From Candidatus Coatesiibacteriota bacterium (GTDB taxonomy: Bacteria > RBG-13-66-14 > B26-G2 > JAUVZD01), in assembly GCA_030602715.1 (NCBI GenBank), contig JAUVZD010000001.1, positions 248,001 to 312,000 on the forward strand: 64,000 nucleotides of DNA. Reading direction: 5' to 3'. This document shows, in pieces, positions 11,119 through 53,182 of this stretch. Every line of letters begins with the position of its first letter. Position 1 is the first letter of the stretch. Made by a program: the position numbers and the translations under genes. The notes below the pieces were generated by a model. That model searched no databases. It had not been told where the DNA came from and worked only from the letters and a program-made list of their open reading frames with translations.

Positions 11119-13182
11119 ATGGTTAGGAAATCCATTTCCCTGCTGGTGGCGATGAGCTTTCTCACTGCCTGCGCCTGCTTAGCCTACGACCAGATAGATT
11201 CCATCGTCATGGTGCAGGCAACGCCTGAGGACCACGCCCTTTTGCGCAGTCTGCAAGCGGAGATTGACGCCGTGCGCCCCGACGGATGGGTGGTGCTCTA
11301 CATCCCTCAGGAGAACCTGTCCCTTCTAACCCAGGCCGGCTTCATCTACCAAGTGCTCTACCAGGACAGTCGGGATACCTGCAACTGGATAGTCCCCACT
11401 CCGGGACTTGAAGCCAGCGACACCCACAAGATAGACTTCACCAGCTACCACGACCACGATGAGCTGGTCGCCGCCCTGGAGGAACTGCACGCCAACTATC
11501 CGGAGATAACCGAGCTATACTATCTGGGGGATAGCGTTGAGGGACGTTCCATTGATGTATTGGTCATCACCGACAACCCCTCAACCGAGGAGATAGAGCC
11601 GGAGATTCGCCTGCTGGGTGCACTGCACGGCAACGAGAGAATCAGCGTGGAGGTGCCGTTATACTTCGCCGACTATCTCTGCTCCCATTACAACAAGGAT
11701 AAGCGGGTGCAGGACATCGTCAACAACAACGAGATCTGGGTCTGCCCCATGGTCAACCCCGACGGCGTGGAGCACGGCTGGCGGAGAAACGCCAACAATG
11801 TTGACCTCAACCGCAACTTCAGCTACATGTGGGATCCTTCCGAAGAACCCTATTGCGGTCCTTATCCCTTCTCCGAGCCGGAGACCCAGGTGGTGCGGGA
11901 GTTCTCCGACAACGGCTACACTTATCCCAACACCTTCGTCATCTCCCACTCCTTCCACTCCGGAGCCGAATGCATCAACTTTGTATGGAACTACGGCGAT
12001 GCGGAACACCCCAGCGGAACCGACCACCCCACACCGGACGACGATGTCATTGAAGATGTAGCCTACGGCTACTGGGACGCCTACACCGGACCCAAATCAG
12101 ACCCCTGGACTTACGGCTTCGGGGTAACCAACGGCTGTGACTGGTATGCCACCTGGGGCGATACCAACGACTGGAGCTACGGGGAACGAAGCGACAACGA
12201 CTACACTATAGAGATATCCAACAACTACTCCCCTCCTCCATCAATGATTCTGACCTACTGCGGATATAATCTGGAATCCATGCTCTACACCTGCGAGGTG
12301 CCCCTGACAGTGGGCATCATGGGCGTGGTCCTGTCCGGCTATACGGAGGAGCCACTCTTGGCAAATATAGATGTGGACGACCGAGACTGGCCCTGGTATA
12401 CCGATCCCCAGATGGGCGACTTCTATCGCCAGCTCCTGCCCGGCACCTACGATGTAACCGTGTCCTCAGAGGGCTTTGCATCGGCTTACTTTGACGATGT
12501 GGTGGTCAATGAGGGCACCATCACCAACCTGAGTTATATGTGGCTGAGCTATTATTCAGATATAGAATTGGTGGAGTTCCTCGCTAAGCCCCATTCGGAG
12601 GGCATCAGTCTCTCGTGGCGGGTGACAGACGATGAGGAGGCAATCGGCTACAACCTCTACCGCTCTCAGGTGGAACAGGCACCGACCGGCGTAGATTCCT
12701 ATAACACCACCCCTTTATCACCAAATCATGTATTCGGCTGGCAGAAGCTAAACGACGCCCCCATCATCGGTCAGAATCCCTACTCTTTTCTTGACAACGA
12801 GGTGCAGGCAGGCTTGCGCTACTCCTACAAGCTGGAAGCGATATGTGAACAGGAGCTGGTCTCACTGGGCACGGCTTCCGGAACCGCCGGCAAGCCCGGC
12901 TCCTTCGCCTTGAGCCAGAACTACCCCAACCCGGCAACATCTGCGACCACTATCAACTTCACCCTGAGCAACCCCTCCCCCGCAGAGACCACTCTGGCGG
13001 TCTATGACCTGAGCGGAAGACTGGTAACCACCCTGGTTGACGACCTGCTGGATGGCGGGGATTATCAGGCTTGCTGGGACCTGAGGAGTGACGACGGCGA
13101 GAAGGTGTCAAGCGGGGTCTACGTCTATCGCCTGACCAGCGGCACAGAGCAGGAGAGCCATCGTATGGTCGTGGTTCGCTAA
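11119..13182 (+). CDS. Secreted M14 zinc carboxypeptidase with T9SS-like C-terminal domain
   Basis: A 687-residue exported peptidase. After a signal peptide (1-22) comes an M14 domain with zinc ligands in LHGNERIS (H and E) and a later His in VISHSFHSG, substrate-binding NRNFSYMW, and the catalytic Glu in YTIEISNNY. Then follow a carboxypeptidase regulatory-like beta sandwich (about 395-470), a fibronectin-like segment, and a terminal domain beginning FALSQNYPNPATSATTINF and ending in a basic MVVVR. That ending is the type A sorting domain of the type IX secretion system, or a FlgD-like Ig domain. GGAGG precedes the ATG. Confidence 0.9.
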   Translation: MVRKSISLLVAMSFLTACACLAYDQIDSIVMVQATPEDHALLRSLQAEIDAVRPDGWVVLYIPQENLSLLTQAGFIYQVLYQDSRDTCNWIVPTPGLEASDTHKIDFTSYHDHDELVAALEELHANYPEITELYYLGDSVEGRSIDVLVITDNPSTEEIEPEIRLLGALHGNERISVEVPLYFADYLCSHYNKDKRVQDIVNNNEIWVCPMVNPDGVEHGWRRNANNVDLNRNFSYMWDPSEEPYCGPYPFSEPETQVVREFSDNGYTYPNTFVISHSFHSGAECINFVWNYGDAEHPSGTDHPTPDDDVIEDVAYGYWDAYTGPKSDPWTYGFGVTNGCDWYATWGDTNDWSYGERSDNDYTIEISNNYSPPPSMILTYCGYNLESMLYTCEVPLTVGIMGVVLSGYTEEPLLANIDVDDRDWPWYTDPQMGDFYRQLLPGTYDVTVSSEGFASAYFDDVVVNEGTITNLSYMWLSYYSDIELVEFLAKPHSEGISLSWRVTDDEEAIGYNLYRSQVEQAPTGVDSYNTTPLSPNHVFGWQKLNDAPIIGQNPYSFLDNEVQAGLRYSYKLEAICEQELVSLGTASGTAGKPGSFALSQNYPNPATSATTINFTLSNPSPAETTLAVYDLSGRLVTTLVDDLLDGGDYQACWDLRSDDGEKVSSGVYVYRLTSGTEQESHRMVVVR

Positions 13183-32987: not shown

Positions 32988-35552
32988 TCATTTTTTCTTT
33001 GGGGGCATGACCCCATCGGTGGGCTTCATTGGAATGCTATTGTTGTTGGTGGAGTTGGGTATAGTAATTTCCTCCTGTTCCAGCTCCTGCTCTTCCTCCT
33101 CCTTTGCCACCAGAAGCATGTAGAAAGTCTTGTTCTTGAATATCGCCTCCCGATCCCGCATCAGCCCGGGGAGATTGGCGGCGACATTGTGGCAGTAGCC
33201 GATGACTTCCCGGTCCAGCTTCATCAGCGCCGCCTCCTCCCAGCTTATCCCCTCCACCTTCTTGTGCCAATATGGTCCCAGCCACTTTATCAGCTTGTTA
33301 AAACGTTCCCTGCCCTCTACGGTTGACTCCAATGGAAATTTGTAATCCCCGATTATGTGAGCCACCAAATCCTCACGAAACTTTTTCAGATAGAGTTCCA
33401 TATCTCCGTCGCATTCGCCGAAGAACAGCTCCACAGACTCGTTTTCCTCCGTCTCGGGGTGGTCGTAGAGATAGATTATCATCACCCGGGTGGCTTCCGG
33501 ACCGGCGTTGTAGGAAGAGCCGGCCAGCTTCGCCCGCCTTAAAAGCCCCTTCTTGCTGGTGGCATCCAGCATTCCCCCCAGCTTCATCTCCTGGCGAAAT
33601 CGTTCATCAAAACGAGAGCCCCCGCAGTTATCAAACATCTCCTTCAAAAACTGCGCCGCCATCTCTATGTTACAACGGTTTATGTTGCGTAAAAAGTAGC
33701 GCTCCTTAAAAGTCCAATCACCCAGCCGCCTGGATACCAGTTCCTCGCCGTCCCAGAAGGTCATCACATAGTGGGTTGCGCCTATCACATCCGCGGTCAT
33801 CTGCATATAGCCGGTAGCCGAGCCCCGTCCCTTACCCGCCCGGTATATGCGCCCACTGCCGGAGATGTGTGCCAAGCCGGACTCCTGGTAGCCAACGGCT
33901 ATCAGCAGGCTGACGAAGGCGTCATCGGAGATATCGTAGATTACCCCCTCCTGCAGACCTCCGGATGAGGGCTGGGGGGTGTAGTTACGGCGGGAGTTGG
34001 CACGCCTGCCGATCTCCTCAAAGAGATGATAGAGGCTGTAATGGGGATTCTCGGCGTCATAGGCGGGCAGATTGTCCAGGTCCTTGAGGGTGATGGGCAC
34101 CGGCACCTTGGGCACATCAAAGGTGGTGTTGAGGATTGCCTCTAAGGTATCGCCGGCGATTATATAGGAGAGTTCTTCTTTCGTGGGCTCATAGTTATAT
34201 TCCGGAGGAAGGTTGTCAAAGCGGAGGAGTATCTCCCGCTCCTTTTTCGCATCCACGGAGAAAGTGGACTGATACCACTCCACCATCTCCGCCATATCAT
34301 CGTCATATACGCTGGTTATCTCCACCAGCTCCGGAAAATTCACTCCCTTACCCGCCTCATAAAACTCCCAGTAAGCCCCCCGGATTAAATTGAGTGTCCT
34401 CTGCAGGGAGCCGATGCAGGCGGGAGCCACCTCCCCGAAGGGCAACCAGGGACCACGAGTGCCGTAATATAGAAAGTCGTCGCCCTCACCCTTCTGCCGG
34501 GTGTAGATGCCGTCTATACCGTCGGGAAAGGACTGAATCTGCTTTATCCCCCGGCTGGTGTCATAGGGAAAGCCGACGCTGCCATCCCCGAGATGGCGAC
34601 CTATCAGTTTGGGGAAGGTGCCGGACATAGCATGGGTTACCGCTATCTCCATCTCCTGTCTGTCGGGGTTGGGTGGAAATGCCAGAAACTCCTCCCCCTC
34701 CCGTTCAAAGACCAGCAGCGCTGTATATTCCCCCGGCGGAAGAGGACGGGGCGAGCCGAATCTTCCCACATTGCCCCAGCCATACCAGACAAATTCACCC
34801 ACCGCTTCCTTGGACAGAGCGTGCGGGTAACCCTCCCGATAACCTATCTCCCCCCGACTGCTCACCTCAAAGACCAGCTCGCCGTCTGAATCGTAGACGC
34901 GCAGGTGGATATCATCCCTCCCGGCGGGCACCGGATCCAAGGTGTAGCCCACCACCACCTCCTGAGAGACATAGTCGGCATCCTGCACAATCCATGAGCG
35001 GAAATCAGCCTCCTCCAGGACGGCGTAGATTTTTCCGGAATTGTCCAGATACTGCACTCCCAATAGGGAGATAATTCCCCCTCCGTCCACCAGACTGACC
35101 TCCACGCTCTCCCCCCGACCGGGGATATAATAAATATATAGATGTTCCTGGGGATAAGCTATATCCGGCTCGTGAATCTCCCCCTGGATGGAGACGATGG
35201 GGTTCTTGATGTTGAACTGCTCCCCAAAGCCGGTGTATAGAGCATCGCTCTTTCCGTTCAAGGAGAAGGCTACTGTGCCCTTAACCACCAATTTGTAGAG
35301 ATGACCGCTTGACAAGGGGGAAGTGATCATCGGTAATCCGCTTCCCGGAACCGCCAGGTATCGCCCCGGCTCGCTTCCGACGGGGAGCAGAACCGCAAGA
35401 AAGATGACCAGCAAAGCGGAAATAAGACAGATCAGTGGTGGGAAGAAGGGGCGGCGGACATTGACAGCCTCCCGCAAGGAGGGGCGGGGAAGCGAGGGAG
35501 CGATCGGTGCGGAAAGCTCATTCCTTGCGTAAATCTCAGAGCTGATATTCAT
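32988..35552 (-). CDS. Membrane-anchored lytic-transglycosylase-like protein (SLT domain)
   Basis: 855 residues from ATG 35552, which lies just after the glgC stop; a longer frame from 35591 overlaps glgC. Layout: about 40 cytoplasmic residues, one transmembrane helix (LICLISALLVIFLAVLLPVG), a large beta-rich extracytoplasmic region (about 65-300), and a helical region. An SLT-type domain (about 540-690) has the catalytic Glu in YQESGLAH, then ATGYMQMTADV and SSYNAGPEATRV, which are the three landmarks of goose-type lytic transglycosylases. The tail is acidic and Asn/Pro-rich. Cleavage of peptidoglycan glycan strands is inferred. Confidence 0.65.
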   Translation of the reverse strand: MNISSEIYARNELSAPIAPSLPRPSLREAVNVRRPFFPPLICLISALLVIFLAVLLPVGSEPGRYLAVPGSGLPMITSPLSSGHLYKLVVKGTVAFSLNGKSDALYTGFGEQFNIKNPIVSIQGEIHEPDIAYPQEHLYIYYIPGRGESVEVSLVDGGGIISLLGVQYLDNSGKIYAVLEEADFRSWIVQDADYVSQEVVVGYTLDPVPAGRDDIHLRVYDSDGELVFEVSSRGEIGYREGYPHALSKEAVGEFVWYGWGNVGRFGSPRPLPPGEYTALLVFEREGEEFLAFPPNPDRQEMEIAVTHAMSGTFPKLIGRHLGDGSVGFPYDTSRGIKQIQSFPDGIDGIYTRQKGEGDDFLYYGTRGPWLPFGEVAPACIGSLQRTLNLIRGAYWEFYEAGKGVNFPELVEITSVYDDDMAEMVEWYQSTFSVDAKKEREILLRFDNLPPEYNYEPTKEELSYIIAGDTLEAILNTTFDVPKVPVPITLKDLDNLPAYDAENPHYSLYHLFEEIGRRANSRRNYTPQPSSGGLQEGVIYDISDDAFVSLLIAVGYQESGLAHISGSGRIYRAGKGRGSATGYMQMTADVIGATHYVMTFWDGEELVSRRLGDWTFKERYFLRNINRCNIEMAAQFLKEMFDNCGGSRFDERFRQEMKLGGMLDATSKKGLLRRAKLAGSSYNAGPEATRVMIIYLYDHPETEENESVELFFGECDGDMELYLKKFREDLVAHIIGDYKFPLESTVEGRERFNKLIKWLGPYWHKKVEGISWEEAALMKLDREVIGYCHNVAANLPGLMRDREAIFKNKTFYMLLVAKEEEEQELEQEEITIPNSTNNNSIPMKPTDGVMPPKKK

Positions 35553-35553
35553 A

Positions 35554-36858
35554 TCAGGGGTCTTCACCGGATACCGTCCTTTTGAGCACATTCTCCCCGC
35601 TTTTCAGAGTCCGCATCTGACCGTAATCCTCCTCGGCTATATCCGAGCCGATCAGACAGTTTCTCCCGATGACCATTTGGGGAGGAACCGCGCTGTTTTT
35701 GCCGATGACCGAGAGACCGGTGTTCAGCAGGTCGGGAAACTCCCTGTTGGGGATGTCGTCCGCCCCCAGCCCGATACGCACCCCCTCACCGAGGACCACC
35801 CTCTTGTCCATAATAACCCGGTCCAGAATACAGTCTCTCTGCACCAGGCAGTCGTCCATTATAATGGATGAGATTACCACGCTGTTCTGGTGGACGATGG
35901 TGCCGGGGAAGATGACCGAATCTACCACCCGCCCGTTGACGATACAGCCTGCGGACAACATACTGTTGTGAACGGAGGCATATTTCCCCAGTTTCACGGG
36001 CGGGGGTCCTGTGCTGGCGGTGAAGATGGGCCAATCCCTGTCGTAGAGGTTCAGCTTGGGCTCGGCGCCCAGGAGGTCCATATTAGCCTCCCAGTATGAT
36101 TGCAGGGTACCCACATCCCGCCAATACCCCTCGTAACGATAGGCATAGAGTTGAGCCCCCCTGCGCAACAGTATGGGGATAATATCTTTACCGAAGTCGT
36201 GGCTGGTTCGTTTTCGGCGGGCGTTTCGCTGTAGTGCATCCAGCAGGACTTTCTTCTTGAATAAATAGACCCCCATTGAAGCCAGGTTGCTCTCGGCTTT
36301 CCTGGGCTTCTCCTTAAAACCAGTTATCCGCCCCTTCTTATCGGTAAAAATTATTCCAAAACGGGAGACATCCTCCGGGGCAACCGGCAGAGCGGAGATG
36401 GTTAAGTCGGCATCGGTCTTTTTTGCGAAATGGTATAATAAACGGTAGTCCATTTTGTATATGTGGTCGCCGGACAGGACTAGGATATAATTGAAATGAC
36501 GGGTGGCGATGTAGCGCCGATTCTGGTAGATGGCGTCTGCGGTTCCCCGATACCAGCCACCGCCCTCGGACATCAACTGCGGCTGAAGGAGCTCCACGCC
36601 TCCGCGCCGGCGGTCCAGGTCCCAGGCTTTGCCGGTAGCGATGTGCTCCATAAGCGAGCGGGGGCGATACTGGGTGAGGACGGCGATGTTATCTATCTGG
36701 GAGTTTACGCAGTTGGACAGGCTGAAGTCAATTATGCGAAACTTCCCCCCAAATGGAACCGAGGGCTTTGCCCGCTTGTCGGATAGCACCGAAAGGCGCG
36801 CACCAACCCCTCCGGCAAGTATCACTGCCAGGACATCATCCACAGTTGAATACCTCAT
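35554..36858 (-). CDS. glgC: Glucose-1-phosphate adenylyltransferase GlgC
   Basis: Makes ADP-glucose for glycogen. It has the nucleotide loop LAGGVGARLSVLSDKRAKPSV, QYRPRSLMEH, GWYRGTADAIYQN, LSGDHIYKMDY, the glucose-1-P site GFKEKP and SMGVYLF, and a C-terminal left-handed beta-helix. I use ATG 36858 (GAAGGT upstream); a further 11 codons open upstream. At 434 residues it matches the bacterial enzyme. No glycogen synthase or branching enzyme is in the window. Confidence 0.95.
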   Translation of the reverse strand: MRYSTVDDVLAVILAGGVGARLSVLSDKRAKPSVPFGGKFRIIDFSLSNCVNSQIDNIAVLTQYRPRSLMEHIATGKAWDLDRRRGGVELLQPQLMSEGGGWYRGTADAIYQNRRYIATRHFNYILVLSGDHIYKMDYRLLYHFAKKTDADLTISALPVAPEDVSRFGIIFTDKKGRITGFKEKPRKAESNLASMGVYLFKKKVLLDALQRNARRKRTSHDFGKDIIPILLRRGAQLYAYRYEGYWRDVGTLQSYWEANMDLLGAEPKLNLYDRDWPIFTASTGPPPVKLGKYASVHNSMLSAGCIVNGRVVDSVIFPGTIVHQNSVVISSIIMDDCLVQRDCILDRVIMDKRVVLGEGVRIGLGADDIPNREFPDLLNTGLSVIGKNSAVPPQMVIGRNCLIGSDIAEEDYGQMRTLKSGENVLKRTVSGEDP

Positions 36859-36982: not shown

Positions 36983-37011
36983 TTGATTTCTCGTATTTTG
37001 GAATATAAAAT
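36983..37011 (+). promoter_or_regulatory. Promoter before paralogue 1 of the five-gene array
   Basis: TTGATT (36983-36988), 17 bases, TAAAAT (37006-37011). A TATAAA begins two bases earlier. Confidence 0.5.
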
Positions 37012-37086: not shown

Positions 37087-37605
37087 ATGTGCATACGGAG
37101 CCGCTGCCACCGCATCACAATAATGTTCGCTTTCCTGGTAATCCTCTCTACCTTCTCGGTCGGTTGCGATTTTTTCTACAGAAAACAGAAAGCCATTGAC
37201 CACTATGACCGCATAAGTGAGATAGTCAACCGAGTAAACCAGAAAGTGATGCGATTGTATGCGCTCCATGATGCCCTGACCCAGAATAGTATCTCCCTGC
37301 AGGACGCCCGCTATGAGATAGCAAGCCTCCAGCAGGAATTCAGCGCCGACAAACAGGCATATCTGAACGAATCTCCACCCAAAGACCTTAGAGACGAATA
37401 CGCCCTCCTCGGTCAGTGGTTTGATGCGGTGGAAATATCCTTTACCAACTTCATCTATGTCATTGATACCGCAGGAACACAATATGAGGATAAATACTAC
37501 AACTACCTGATAGATGCCCTCAATCAACAGGAAGAACTCAACGTCCAATCATACAAAGCCTATCAAAACAAGCTGAGCGAGTTGGGCTTCTATGTTGATG
37601 ACTAA
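37087..37605 (+). CDS. Tandem paralogue 1: small helical lipoprotein, unknown family
   Basis: 172 residues. Basic start, hydrophobic stretch and lipobox FSVGC (Cys about residue 27) predict a lipoprotein. The mature part is helical and follows the array's shared core: HYDRISEIVNRV, LYALHDAL, a QDARYEIASLQQEF helix, a short PP loop, WFDAVEISF and a C-terminal YKAYQNKLSELGF helix. It is the most divergent of the five: the VPxDF box appears only as PPKDLRDE and it ends YVDD. I recognise no named family. Confidence 0.7.
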   Translation: MCIRSRCHRITIMFAFLVILSTFSVGCDFFYRKQKAIDHYDRISEIVNRVNQKVMRLYALHDALTQNSISLQDARYEIASLQQEFSADKQAYLNESPPKDLRDEYALLGQWFDAVEISFTNFIYVIDTAGTQYEDKYYNYLIDALNQQEELNVQSYKAYQNKLSELGFYVDD

Positions 37606-37682
37606 TCCCCTTAAAAGGACCATTTCCAATCACTAGAGTTTAACAGTCCTCTACAACTTCATAAATTTAGAAAGGAGAAAAC

Positions 37683-38180
37683 TTGAAGAAGGCACTACTA
37701 CTATGCACGGTGGCCGTCTCCATTCTGGCACTGATCGGTTGTTGGAAGAGCGCCTCCGACCAGGCGGAAGAACACTACGAGGCTCTGCGCCCCGTCATTG
37801 AAGGAGCCACCGAAGTTCTGGACGAGATGTATGCCATTGATGAGCAGTTGGGCACCGGCACAATCACCTCCCATGCCGCCCGCAATCGGGTCAACCAGCT
37901 GAAAGTAAAATTCCTATCCCTGAAGGGACAGCTCCCTTCAATCAAAGTGCCCAAGGACTTTGAGGATGAGTTCCAGCTGGTGAACAATTGGATGGACCAG
38001 GGCGAAAAGACCTTTGACTTTATGCTTGTGTCCATTGAGAAGGAGGCCGCCAGCATTGCGGAGTTTGACAGAGCCCTGAACGATTTCTATTCCGCTTGGG
38101 ACAAAGAGACCATGATGTATGATTTGATGGATGAAGCCTATAACAAGCAGATGACTGAGAAGGGCGTGGAACTCTACTAA
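37683..38180 (+). CDS. Tandem paralogue 2: small helical lipoprotein, unknown family
   Basis: 165 residues from a TTG start with AAAGGAG upstream. The lipobox LALIGC puts the lipidated Cys at about residue 20. Core: EEHYEALRPVIEGA, DEMYAIDEQLGTGT, VPKDFEDEF, WMDQGEKTFDFMLVSIEKE, ALNDFYSAWDKE, and terminal GVELY. The closest relative is paralogue 3 (38320), with which it shares nearly every landmark. It is predicted to form a four-helix bundle on the membrane. It may be transcribed with paralogue 1, since I see no good promoter in the 77-base gap, and it ends at a clear terminator. Confidence 0.75.
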   Translation: MKKALLLCTVAVSILALIGCWKSASDQAEEHYEALRPVIEGATEVLDEMYAIDEQLGTGTITSHAARNRVNQLKVKFLSLKGQLPSIKVPKDFEDEFQLVNNWMDQGEKTFDFMLVSIEKEAASIAEFDRALNDFYSAWDKETMMYDLMDEAYNKQMTEKGVELY

Positions 38181-38194
38181 TCTCAAAAAAGACC

Positions 38195-38222
38195 GAAAGC
38201 CCCCCTTCTTTGGGGGGCTTTC
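38195..38222 (+). terminator. Terminator after paralogue 2
   Basis: GAAAGCCCCCC (38195-38205) pairs perfectly with GGGGGGCTTTC (38212-38222). Confidence 0.75.
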
Positions 38223-38248
38223 CATTAAAACCGAATAATATAAAAACA

Positions 38249-38277
38249 TTGATTTCATCACTTAATCATATTATTGT
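38249..38277 (+). promoter_or_regulatory. Promoter before paralogue 3
   Basis: TTGATT (38249-38254), 17 bases, TATTGT (38272-38277). Confidence 0.45.
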
Positions 38278-38319
38278 GCTAAAGCAGGTCAAGAAAATTC
38301 CACTTTTAAAGGATGGGAT

Positions 38320-38847
38320 ATGAACAAGCTCACAACCTTCATCTCCGCCCTGGTCTTAACCATTATGGTGATAGTCGCAAGCCCACTCAAGGCGTCGGGC
38401 GAGGATGGTGGCAAGAGTCCAGCAGACCAAGCCAGGGAGCATTATGAGGTTCTAACCTCCATCGTTGAAGGAGCCATCGCCGCTCTTGACGGCATGTATG
38501 CCCTTGACGAAACGTTGGCTGATGGCACCGTTACTTTGGAATCAGCCAGATCCAAAACCATAGAGCTGAAGGAGGAGTTTCTGTCCCGGAGGGCGGAGCT
38601 TGATCACATTGATGTGCCAGAGGACTTTGTGGAAGTGTTCAACATGTTGCTCAACTGGATGAATCAAGCCGAAAAGACCTTTGACCTTATGCTGGTAACC
38701 ATTGAGAAAGAGACCGCCGAAGCTGAGGAGTTTGATAAAGCCCTGGACGATTTCTACTCCGCCTGGGATTTGGAAATTCAGATGTATGATGAGATGACCG
38801 AAGCCTATGTCCAGCAGATGGTTGAGTTTGGCTTGGACCTCTACTGA
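38320..38847 (+). CDS. Tandem paralogue 3: small secreted helical protein
   Basis: 175 residues. A signal peptide ending near SPLKASG lacks a lipobox Cys, so it is probably a soluble periplasmic protein. Core: REHYEVLTSIVEGA, GMYALDETLADGT, VPEDFVEVF, WMNQAEKTFDLMLVTIEKE, ALDDFYSAWDLE, terminal GLDLY. It is clearly paralogous to gene 2 at the protein level, with much codon-level divergence, so the duplication is not recent. GGATGGG lies before the ATG. Confidence 0.75.
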   Translation: MNKLTTFISALVLTIMVIVASPLKASGEDGGKSPADQAREHYEVLTSIVEGAIAALDGMYALDETLADGTVTLESARSKTIELKEEFLSRRAELDHIDVPEDFVEVFNMLLNWMNQAEKTFDLMLVTIEKETAEAEEFDKALDDFYSAWDLEIQMYDEMTEAYVQQMVEFGLDLY

Positions 38848-38921
38848 TGACCTTAGTGGACCTCAGCAATGACCCCCCTGAATACAATCTGAAAAAGTAT
38901 TTTGAAATATGCAAAAAAATA

Positions 38922-38950
38922 TTGATTAAGCTCCCGAATTGTAGTATTTT
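38922..38950 (+). promoter_or_regulatory. Promoter before paralogue 4
   Basis: TTGATT (38922-38927), a 17-base spacer ending GAATTGTAG, and TATTTT (38945-38950). The spacer end is identical to that at 39675-39703. Confidence 0.5.
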
Positions 38951-38995
38951 ATTTGCGATCTTTTCAAATTATCCTCATCACAGAAAGGATGCACT

Positions 38996-39583
38996 ATGAA
39001 GAAATTTATAATTATCTTTTCCGTCCTGCTACTGCTGGTCTCTCTATCGGGCTGTGAGAGGGTCAAGCAGATTTTCGGCAAAGGAGAGATTGAACTTGAC
39101 CCCGCCACTCAGGCAGAAGAACATTACAATCAGCTCAAACCACTGGTAGAGAACGCCGGTCAGTGCCTGGACTATCTCTATGAGCTTGACGAACAGCTGA
39201 GTGACGGCACAGTCGCTCTGGACTACGCCCTTCAGCGCACCAATGAGCTGAAACAGAACTACGCCATGCAGAGGGATACCCTCAAAACGGTCAAGGTGCC
39301 CGCCGATTTCCAGAACGAATGGAAGATGACTCAGCAGTGGTTTGACGAAGGATACAGACTATTTGACCTGATGGCAGACACAATCTATAAGGAAAAAGCC
39401 GGCGGGGGACCCCCCTTTGAGAAATCTATGGATGTCTTCTACGCCGCTCAGGACAGAGAGTTTCAATTCTACGAAAATATGACCGCCGCCTATGACGCCA
39501 AGATGGAATCGTATGGCTTCACAATGGAAGATACACCAGGGGGCGGTGACTTCCCCAAAGCCATACCCAAAGGTGGAAAGTAG
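38996..39583 (+). CDS. Tandem paralogue 4: small helical lipoprotein, unknown family
   Basis: 195 residues. Lipobox LSLSGC (Cys about residue 19). It has a longer linker before the core (GKGEIELDPATQ). Core: EEHYNQLKPLVENA, YLYELDEQLSDGT, VPADFQNEW, WFDEGYRLFDLMADTIYKE, MDVFYAAQDRE, and then a Gly/Pro/Lys-rich tail (about 20 residues) not found in the others. AGAAAGG lies ahead of the ATG. Confidence 0.72.
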   Translation: MKKFIIIFSVLLLLVSLSGCERVKQIFGKGEIELDPATQAEEHYNQLKPLVENAGQCLDYLYELDEQLSDGTVALDYALQRTNELKQNYAMQRDTLKTVKVPADFQNEWKMTQQWFDEGYRLFDLMADTIYKEKAGGGPPFEKSMDVFYAAQDREFQFYENMTAAYDAKMESYGFTMEDTPGGGDFPKAIPKGGK

Positions 39584-39616
39584 TAGAAGAGTAAAAGCGC
39601 CCATCAAAGCAACCAC

Positions 39617-39640
39617 GAGCCCCCTTTCTCGGGGGCTTTC
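39617..39640 (+). terminator. Terminator after paralogue 4
   Basis: AGCCCCC (39618-39624) pairs with GGGGGCT (39631-39637), followed by TTC. It resembles the terminator at 38195 in sequence (AGCCCCC...GGGGGCTTTC). Confidence 0.7.
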
Positions 39641-39674
39641 TGCGAAGTTCTTCATCCCAATATCGCTAAAAGGA

Positions 39675-39703
39675 TTGATTGGGCGACTGAATTGTAGTAA
39701 TCT
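39675..39703 (+). promoter_or_regulatory. Promoter before paralogue 5
   Basis: TTGATT (39675-39680), a 17-base spacer ending GAATTGTAG, and TAATCT (39698-39703). Confidence 0.5.
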
Positions 39704-39748
39704 ATCTGCACTCGCTCTTCAGTTGAAAAATAAGGACCGAACGAGCCA

Positions 39749-40273
39749 ATGACGGTCAAAGGTAATAAAAGGAAATTTGTCATCTGCCTGATGTTCCTGG
39801 CAGTGGCTTGGGCTTCATCGGTAAAAGCCCAGGAAGATGATGCGGTGGAGCTGATGGAGCGGATTACCGCCATCGCCACCCACTACGACCAGGTAACCCC
39901 CCTGGTGATGGACGCTGTGGAGTTGATGGCAGAGTTATATACATATGAGGAACTGCTCCACTCCGACCCTGCCATCGCCGGTCAATCGGTTAAAGAGATT
40001 AAGGACCGTTTGCAAACCCTGACCTCAGAGATTCATACTATAAGCCCGCCCCCGGAGGCTGAGGATACCTTCAACAAACTGCTCCTCTGGTTTGAGAACC
40101 TGGAGGAGGTTATTGACCTCTTTCTGGTGACCGCCTCGCCAGACTATTCGTCACCTGTGGAGTATCGTCTCTCCGCCTACCGGGAGTCCAAAGCCTGCGA
40201 GGCGAAGCTCTTCACCGAGGCTAAAGATGCGTATATCCAGCTCCTCGGCGATTACGGCATACCACTGGAATAA
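39749..40273 (+). CDS. Tandem paralogue 5: small secreted helical protein
   Basis: 174 residues with a signal peptide (cleavage near VKAQ) and no lipobox Cys. It is a divergent member: THYDQVTPLVMDAVELM at the first helix, YTYEELLHSDPA, PPPEAEDTF in place of the VPxDFxxEF box, WFENLEEVIDLFLVT, and a C-terminal AKDAYIQLLGDYGIPLE that keeps the G-xxL ending of the family. It is the last gene of the array and runs toward nadK on the other strand. Confidence 0.7.
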   Translation: MTVKGNKRKFVICLMFLAVAWASSVKAQEDDAVELMERITAIATHYDQVTPLVMDAVELMAELYTYEELLHSDPAIAGQSVKEIKDRLQTLTSEIHTISPPPEAEDTFNKLLLWFENLEEVIDLFLVTASPDYSSPVEYRLSAYRESKACEAKLFTEAKDAYIQLLGDYGIPLE

Positions 40274-40297: not shown

Positions 40298-40330
40298 AAA
40301 AAAGAAAAGGCTGGGGAGACCACCCCAGCC
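40298..40330 (-). terminator. Terminator of the dxs-tlyA-nadK operon
   Basis: GGCTGGGG/CCCCAGCC (40323-40330 with 40309-40316), followed on the minus strand by TTTTCTTTTTT. The hairpin may also serve paralogue 5 on the plus strand. Confidence 0.85.
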
Positions 40331-51040: not shown

Positions 51041-53182
51041 ATGAGGCAAAGGTTAATCCCTTTTAAGGAAAAGGGACGTGTTCTCTTAATATCCGGCATA
51101 GCTATCATCATCCTGTTTACGATACTTGCCAACCGAACCTCATTCTGTGCCCAGATGCAAGGGGAACTCCTCTCCCACCTGCCGGACGGCGGATTTCTAT
51201 ACATTGACATCGTCTCCCTTCCTAAGATGATTATCACCACCCTGGAACAGCCCCACATGATAATACTGCAGGAGGAGAGCGGCGATGAGAGCATCACCGA
51301 GTTGATAGACGCCGCCCTGGACGAAGTCCTCCCCGGGCTTTCTCTGGAGAAGCTATTGCTCCTCTTCCCCGCTGAGTTCTCCTGTGGGGCTTACTACGAA
51401 GAAGAGGATTTCCAATTTATAGTTGCGGTAGATATTGTAAGTGGTGATGAATTCAACCCCCTCCTCAAGCGGTTTCTGGCACTTGGAGAAGAGAAGGGGG
51501 GTATCAAAGTAAAAGAGAAGACCAAAGGTGATTTCCTCTTCTATGAGCTGAAGGGAGATGCAAATGTGGTATATCTTGCCTTTGACGACTCCGTTCTGCT
51601 GGTAAGCACAACCAAGGAGATGGTTGAAGGAGCGATGAAAAACTTCGCCGAAGCCAAGACCCCCCTAAACGACAATTCCGCCCTGACCAGCGCAAGAGAA
51701 AATCTCTCCGATGGGGCTGACTATTATCTCCTCTGCGACGGGCAAAAGCTGAGTGAGCTGATATTGGGAAAATTCCCTTCCGAGGAGGAAGGGGGCGAGG
51801 TGGAAGAAGCCCTCCTGTCCGGCCTGACGGAATGGCTGAACACCTTCCTGCAAGACCTGAGATGTATCTCCCTGAGCTTCCGCTTCCCTCCCCAGGAAGC
51901 CTCCGCAGTTGACCTGCTCACCCCCAGCGACGAGGTTTTCCTCCAGCTCCAGCCCGGCTCGGAAACCGCCGCCCAATTCGGAATGTTGCAGGGGAAAGAC
52001 CGTCCCAAATGGACGCCGCAAGTTGTCCCCGGCGAGACGGTGATGTTATCGTGCAGCACCGGCGAGGAGACTATCACCCCAAAATCCCAAAATTACCTCT
52101 CCTATCTCCTCTCCTTCCTCCCCTTCCCCCGAAGCGAAGCGGAGCTGATGAACGAGGTCCTTGAGCTGCTCCCCACCCCGCCGGAGCTCGCCTTTCTCTC
52201 GGATGAGGACCTGACCGCCGGTCTGGGGCAGGAGACAGCCACCGCCTATATGCCCGGTCCTGACCCATTAAGCTATCTGTTCTCGTTGACCGACAAAGCA
52301 GAAGCCAACAGGTTCTCCCTGCTCCTCTACTCGTTGAAGGAGCCGGGGGACTTTGAAGGGAAGTATCTTGCCCATCTGAACCAGTCGGAACTGGTGGAGG
52401 TGGAGACCGTCCCCTACCTGGGGAAAAATATCTACCACCTGACCCCCACCGAGTCGGCTTATAGGATAAACGAGGAGGCGGTTACCGACTGGATTAACAA
52501 GATAATGGGGGAGATGGGCACAGGCCTCTTTGAGAGGGACGAATGGGACGTGTCGGAGAAGGAGTTCGGCTGGAATATATATGGACAAATAAGTGAGCTG
52601 TTCCCCATCATGGAATCCTATGTCTTCTTCCTCTCGGACTTTATGGTTATAGCCTACGACCCCGATGTCGCCCAGAAGACCATCGCCCACTACATGGAAG
52701 GCGATGTCCTGGCTCAGAACCCCCAGTTTCAGAGATACCTGGCTCATGTTGATGAGGATAACTATTCCCTCTTCTATGTCTCCACCTTCTTCCCCCCAGA
52801 GCGCTACGACCTTCCCGACGACGAAGACCTGGAACAGATGACCACCATGAAAGAAAAACAGACCAAGCCGATAGATGACGACGGTGATGAGGCGCCCTTC
52901 ACCGAAGGCTATCAGTTTTCCTATCAACACCAGCCGACTGAGCTCACCGAAATATGGCAGATGTATTCCGGTGAAGGCTTCATCATCAGCACCACTCTGG
53001 GAGCAAACTCTCTAAAGATAGAGGGTTACCCCAAAGCCTTTGAGAAGCTCTTCATGTCCATCCTCCTCTCAGCCTTCTTCGCCGTCTCTGAGCTGGACGC
53101 TTTTGAGTTTGACATTGAAGAGAGCGAGGAATATGTCATTGAAGATGAACTCCCTCCAACAAATCCCCTCCACGAAGAATAG
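51041..53182 (+). CDS. Exported DUF3352-like protein
   Basis: 713 residues with an N-terminal hydrophobic anchor or signal (about 14-32). The mature protein is a repeated alpha/beta arrangement beginning LLSHLPDGGFLYIDI, with later segments such as VVYLAFDDSVLLVSTTKEMVEGAM and YVFFLSDFMVIAYDPDVAQKTI. This is the pattern of DUF3352 proteins (residues switching between a strand, a display phrase and a helix). The acidic linker after about residue 600 separates a last domain. The function is unknown. It is the first gene of a six-gene run extending to the HD-GYP fusion. Confidence 0.6.
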   Translation: MRQRLIPFKEKGRVLLISGIAIIILFTILANRTSFCAQMQGELLSHLPDGGFLYIDIVSLPKMIITTLEQPHMIILQEESGDESITELIDAALDEVLPGLSLEKLLLLFPAEFSCGAYYEEEDFQFIVAVDIVSGDEFNPLLKRFLALGEEKGGIKVKEKTKGDFLFYELKGDANVVYLAFDDSVLLVSTTKEMVEGAMKNFAEAKTPLNDNSALTSARENLSDGADYYLLCDGQKLSELILGKFPSEEEGGEVEEALLSGLTEWLNTFLQDLRCISLSFRFPPQEASAVDLLTPSDEVFLQLQPGSETAAQFGMLQGKDRPKWTPQVVPGETVMLSCSTGEETITPKSQNYLSYLLSFLPFPRSEAELMNEVLELLPTPPELAFLSDEDLTAGLGQETATAYMPGPDPLSYLFSLTDKAEANRFSLLLYSLKEPGDFEGKYLAHLNQSELVEVETVPYLGKNIYHLTPTESAYRINEEAVTDWINKIMGEMGTGLFERDEWDVSEKEFGWNIYGQISELFPIMESYVFFLSDFMVIAYDPDVAQKTIAHYMEGDVLAQNPQFQRYLAHVDEDNYSLFYVSTFFPPERYDLPDDEDLEQMTTMKEKQTKPIDDDGDEAPFTEGYQFSYQHQPTELTEIWQMYSGEGFIISTTLGANSLKIEGYPKAFEKLFMSILLSAFFAVSELDAFEFDIEESEEYVIEDELPPTNPLHEE

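Follow-up and report, generated by a model that had tools for sequence, protein, structure and literature searches.

Five tandem paralogous genes for exported, predicted four-helix-bundle proteins in Candidatus Coatesiibacteriota

What is an uninterrupted run of five genes for small exported proteins doing among housekeeping genes, and does it constitute a system of its own? The question is raised by positions 37087–40273 of the window, the 64-kb stretch of DNA that was analysed as a whole. The original prediction described five plus-strand genes at this site, and the open reading frames match it exactly in coordinates and in length, with products of 172, 165, 175, 195 and 174 residues. In order, these are gene 1 (37087–37605), gene 2 (37683–38180, with a TTG start), gene 3 (38320–38847), gene 4 (38996–39583, whose product has a Gly/Pro-rich C-terminal tail) and gene 5 (39749–40273), all consecutive and all on the plus strand. 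The array is flanked by a divergently placed glgC and a convergent nadK, and its neighbours, tlyA included, are housekeeping genes. All the products are acidic, with pI values of 4.1–4.6. Both G+C content and codon use of the array genes lie close to the values of their neighbours and so give no strong sign of recent import; on composition, recent horizontal acquisition is unlikely.

Paralogy was computed on the mature proteins. All five are related, with local-alignment z values against shuffled sequences that run from 6.7 for genes 1 and 5, the weakest pair, to 68 for genes 2 and 3, the closest pair at 56% identity. Genes 2, 3 and 4 form a core trio (39–56% identity), gene 4 sharing 39–43% with each of the other two. 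Genes 1 and 5 are diverged members, at about 22–26% identity with the rest; gene 1 aligns to genes 2–4 with z of about 16, and gene 5 to the others at 22–26% identity with z of 6.7–19.6. By profile–profile comparison in hhalign, the trio matched the profile of genes 1 and 5 with a probability of 97.7 and an E-value of 1.7e-12 over 129 columns. Ten columns are invariant in the five-protein alignment (H, Y, Y, L, A, P, W, A, Y and G), the histidine being the sole usual catalytic or metal-ligand residue among them. A shared paralogous core had been claimed for the array, and these comparisons bear it out. A VP.DF-type loop, said to be weak in genes 1 and 5, is clear in genes 2, 3 and 4 and is indeed reduced in the two diverged members to the invariant proline. 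At the DNA level, genes 2 and 3 are 72% identical across 285 nt. For every pair tested dN was lower than dS, with values of 0.39 and 1.12, respectively, in the comparison of gene 2 with gene 3; the coding sequences therefore look constrained, although dS is saturated in most pairs. As judged from these alignments, the five genes are descended from one ancestor.

Export signals and lipoboxes were assessed by eye. All five proteins carry an export signal, and a lipobox cysteine occurs in products 1, 2 and 4 and is absent from 3 and 5, as originally described, with the qualification that the SVGC motif of gene 1 is weak; the LIGC of gene 2 and the LSGC of gene 4 are good. By eye, therefore, genes 1, 2 and 4 show the signal peptide ending in a lipobox cysteine that marks bacterial lipoproteins, and genes 3 and 5 have cysteine-free cleavage sites, LKA|S and VKA|Q. 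From these motifs we infer a probable lipid anchor in the envelope for products 1, 2 and 4, whereas products 3 and 5 would probably be unattached, either periplasmic or extracellular; this supports the proposed mixture of lipidated and soluble copies. Of the closest sisters, gene 2 has a lipobox and gene 3 has none, which would place the split in localisation after their duplication. Elsewhere in the window, a zinc carboxypeptidase of the M14 family (11119–13182, plus strand) has a Por secretion-type C-terminal tail, which suggests type IX-like secretion in this organism.

Tandem genes for anchored envelope proteins invite one of the two main rival explanations, namely that the products are surface or coat lipoproteins that face the environment and diversify by duplication. 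The arrangement is that of Borrelia burgdorferi lp54, where nine PFam54 genes for surface proteins stand in tandem as paralogues (PMC3303823). The parallel is one of arrangement only: the PFam54 genes are plasmid-borne, include some recent duplicates and truncated genes, and gave no sequence match to the array. The array, by contrast, is chromosomal and set among housekeeping genes, shows neither high-identity copies nor pseudogenes as signs of ongoing variation, and has two members without a lipobox. We consider this explanation unlikely.

The promoter pattern was likewise computed. A TTGATT-N17-TANNNT element lies upstream of genes 1, 3, 4 and 5, at −104, −71, −74 and −74 relative to the respective start codons. 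The plus-strand sites found by pattern match are TTGATT-N17-TAAAAT for gene 1 (36983–37011), TTGATT-N17-TATTGT for gene 3 (38249–38277), TTGATT-N17-TATTTT for gene 4 (38922–38950) and TTGATT-N17-TAATCT for gene 5 (39675–39703). Across 724 nt of intergenic sequence, four plus-strand sites were observed against 0.009 expected; the pattern occurs one further time in the window, for which as a whole about 0.5 sites are expected on the two strands together. Genome-wide the pattern occurs 61 times, against six for a reversed control, and it therefore looks like the ordinary housekeeping promoter of the organism and not a private switch. A private regulator acting through the TTGATT promoters was dropped on the same ground. 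The 51-nt promoter blocks of genes 4 and 5 (38906–38956 and 39659–39709) are 73% identical, whereas the two proteins share only 23%, and the promoters of both contain the 11-mer GAATTGTAGTA, which occurs in the 2.3-Mb genome only before these two genes. Their similarity points to shared control or to a copied promoter.

Gene 2 is preceded by a weaker promoter-like plus-strand site, TTAACA-N16-TAAATT (37640–37667), which has only 9 of 12 consensus matches and falls in the 77 nt after gene 1. Gene 2 may be read through from gene 1, the two being co-transcribed. A putative terminator with an 11-pair GC-rich stem and a T tract follows gene 2 (38195–38222, no strand assigned). After gene 4, a terminator-like plus-strand hairpin, read in the sequence as CCCCC..GGGGG followed by CTTT (39620–39640), is 81% like it. 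A third terminator hairpin (40309–40330) separates gene 5 from nadK, which runs towards it, and was called by the scan on the minus strand. The suggestion that each gene has separate promoter or terminator signals thus stands for the promoters of genes 1, 3, 4 and 5 and the terminators after genes 2, 4 and 5, but not for the promoter of gene 2, which is only weak.

Unrelated folds had been named beforehand as the outcome that would tell against a single family. The computed AlphaFold2 models for genes 1 and 3, built on alignments of five sequences, instead share one fold, a four-helix bundle, with mean pLDDT of 88.9 for gene 1 and 85.7 for gene 3, in which residues 34–169 are mostly above 90. 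The helices of the gene 3 model span residues 34–67, 73–96, 101–132 and 135–169, and the array products are predicted to fold as up-down-up-down bundles. Placed from these helix spans and not from coordinates, gene 3 residues H41, Y42, P100, A162, Y163 and G171 lie at the end of the bundle that holds both termini, and Y60, L66 and A76 lie at the far end. With six of the ten invariant residues near the terminal end, we infer that this end would be a shared contact surface; folding needs alone may also explain the clustering.

A Foldseek search of the PDB and of viral models returned no match with an E-value below 0.001. VIA-align gave Z values of up to 14 to many unrelated bundles, among them Rex1BD, designed ABLE proteins, the Tar, Tsr and PcaY_PP domains and the Staphylococcus aureus helical bundle 2ap3, and its notes describe such values as usual for unrelated helical bundles of common arrangement. 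Four-helix bundles are far too common for the fold to be informative about function. One could nevertheless suppose that the array proteins are distant members of the YkyA family (PF10368) or of the four-helix ligand-binding domains of chemoreceptors, and that they share the role known or guessed for those families. We followed up YkyA on the strength of the match to 2ap3, which we take to be a member of that family: against gene 3 it gave Z 12.7 at 2.6 Å over 135 residues with 4% identity, tied with unrelated bundles. Both YkyA and the array comprise small lipoproteins with predicted or solved long helical bundles; the YkyA proteins, however, occur in Bacilli, where each of the 11 searched genomes that proved positive has just one copy. 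PF10368 (cut-off 28.8 bits) listed no array protein at E-values up to 10, and its only match in the genome falls below the cut-off inside a 957-residue reading frame elsewhere. Against ten YkyA sequences, hhalign gave a probability of 4.7% over 24 columns, and 1 of 40 block-shuffled controls scored higher. Membership in YkyA was therefore rejected, on the absent Pfam match and a profile–profile score within the range of shuffled controls.

The chemoreceptor ligand-binding domains of Tar, Tsr and PcaY_PP share with the structure predicted for the array proteins an up-down-up-down arrangement of four helices, a similar length and a position outside the inner membrane. Their Z values of 12–13 (12.8 for PcaY_PP) are tied with those of designed bundles, which is the level expected for generic bundles. 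The array proteins differ in having neither a transmembrane nor a signalling part, the reading frames ending after the bundle, and Pfam sensor models matched none of them. Together with the Z values of 12.7 and 12.8, a match of gene 2 alone to the NCBIfam model Cbp1 (E = 0.0027, far below the cut-off of the model) is what speaks for kinship with either group; on the evidence above, we regard such kinship as very unlikely. Like Skp, Spy or CpxP, the products might bind unfolded proteins and so act as chaperones of the periplasm or buffer envelope stress, a role that would suit small, acidic, all-helical exported proteins in free and anchored copies. Spy is an open cradle and Skp a trimer. The compact predicted bundle resembles neither, there is no Pfam match to known chaperone families, and nothing in the housekeeping-type promoters points to control by stress, making this role highly improbable.

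We tentatively favour, at somewhat under even odds, a different explanation: the array would be a lineage-specific, tandem-duplicated envelope domain for binding or docking, present in anchored and free copies. The family would have expanded as a gene and its promoter were copied in tandem as one unit. All products would be exported and fold as four-helix bundles, with products 1, 2 and 4 anchored and 3 and 5 free. The bundle would serve as a non-enzymatic binding or docking domain, and the end that holds both termini, membrane-proximal in the lipidated copies, could be the contact surface that all share, while the rest diverged between copies.

No named family had been recognised for these proteins, and a single family accommodating all five would have told against the original prediction. 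Searched with all five, Pfam, NCBIfam, PADLOC and PHROGs yielded only sub-threshold matches with no common target, and none of these collections holds a fitting family. Sequence searches of solved structures returned chance matches only (a designed repeat, an apolipoprotein and NEDD4). For gene 3, no relative was found among 84,980 genomes, in a weak test that required exact 8-residue words. A viral scan with a three-row profile and a plasmid tblastn search gave no match, and no further copy was found elsewhere in the genome. By profile search, the family is absent from 13 other genomes of the same phylum, and in two genome sets that overlap, one of 386 and one of 385, it produced weak matches only. 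The best of the outside matches (genome G095) lies in a reading frame that by eye is MCE/MlaD-like coiled coil and was taken as chance, as was a match in genome G046. Two further reading frames of the window lack Pfam and NCBIfam matches: one of 713 residues (51041–53182, plus strand), and one of 867 residues (32988–35591, minus strand) with QESG, GYMQM and SYNAGP motifs, by eye a diverged member of the lytic transglycosylase-like proteins.

The nearest genome searched, G001, is the only order-level relative, and its NadK and GlgC are 43% and 54% identical to those of the window. The absence of relatives is thus a limited negative, as the nearest genome is only 43–54% identical in two housekeeping proteins. 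In G001 the gene directly after nadK is recN-like, and the array is absent beside nadK in this genome. The G001 contig that carries glgC stops 369 bases past that gene, inside a different lipoprotein gene. This gene (L051, 4414–4669), whose product has LVIVD-like repeats, begins a short way upstream of glgC and is truncated where the contig stops. In genomes of the same class, exported proteins surround paired glgC genes (L053, 3429–4283 and 5982–6932; L054, 3163–4155 and 7488–8357) and share at their C termini a SLGKVKALF-like tail that may be a sorting signal.

The other main rival is an orphan immunity array. Competitors would deliver toxins that act in the periplasm, every copy would protect against a different one of them, and new copies would arise by duplication and then diverge. 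The five genes are tandem, non-identical, diverged paralogues with envelope products, and in this they resemble known immunity strings, such as the tandem esaG, tsaI and tipC genes of Gram-positive type VII systems (PMC9484751). Those strings, however, belong to a Gram-positive type VII setting and encode different proteins, whereas the array has no recognised toxin locus: the nearby genes that were scanned included none recognisable as a toxin or secretion gene, PADLOC and PHROGs gave no match of note, and outside the gene 2/3 pair no recombination block of high identity was seen. We consider an immunity function improbable.

The idea of a system had also been raised, with the copies as subunits or as switchable variants. 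This step is not supported. Companion genes and machinery for variation were looked for and not found, nor were recombination blocks, and the array is surrounded by housekeeping genes. Quite unlikely, in our view, is a new exported binding system from a poorly known phylum that uses a single four-helix domain to recognise a family of related partners, be they toxins, phage proteins or ligands. Its anchored copies would act at the membrane and its free ones as decoys or carriers, with each copy tuned to a different partner.

Secreted orphan families in tandem copies are a frequent sight in bacteria that have been little sampled. The array is real and unnamed, but as a lineage-specific gene expansion it is of a common kind: an exported family without named relatives, from a phylum represented by only about 14 species among the genomes searched. 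It illustrates duplication followed by a split into anchored and free forms. Its relevance lies mainly in envelope evolution and in work on orphan families, and would be wider if the products do recognise partners.
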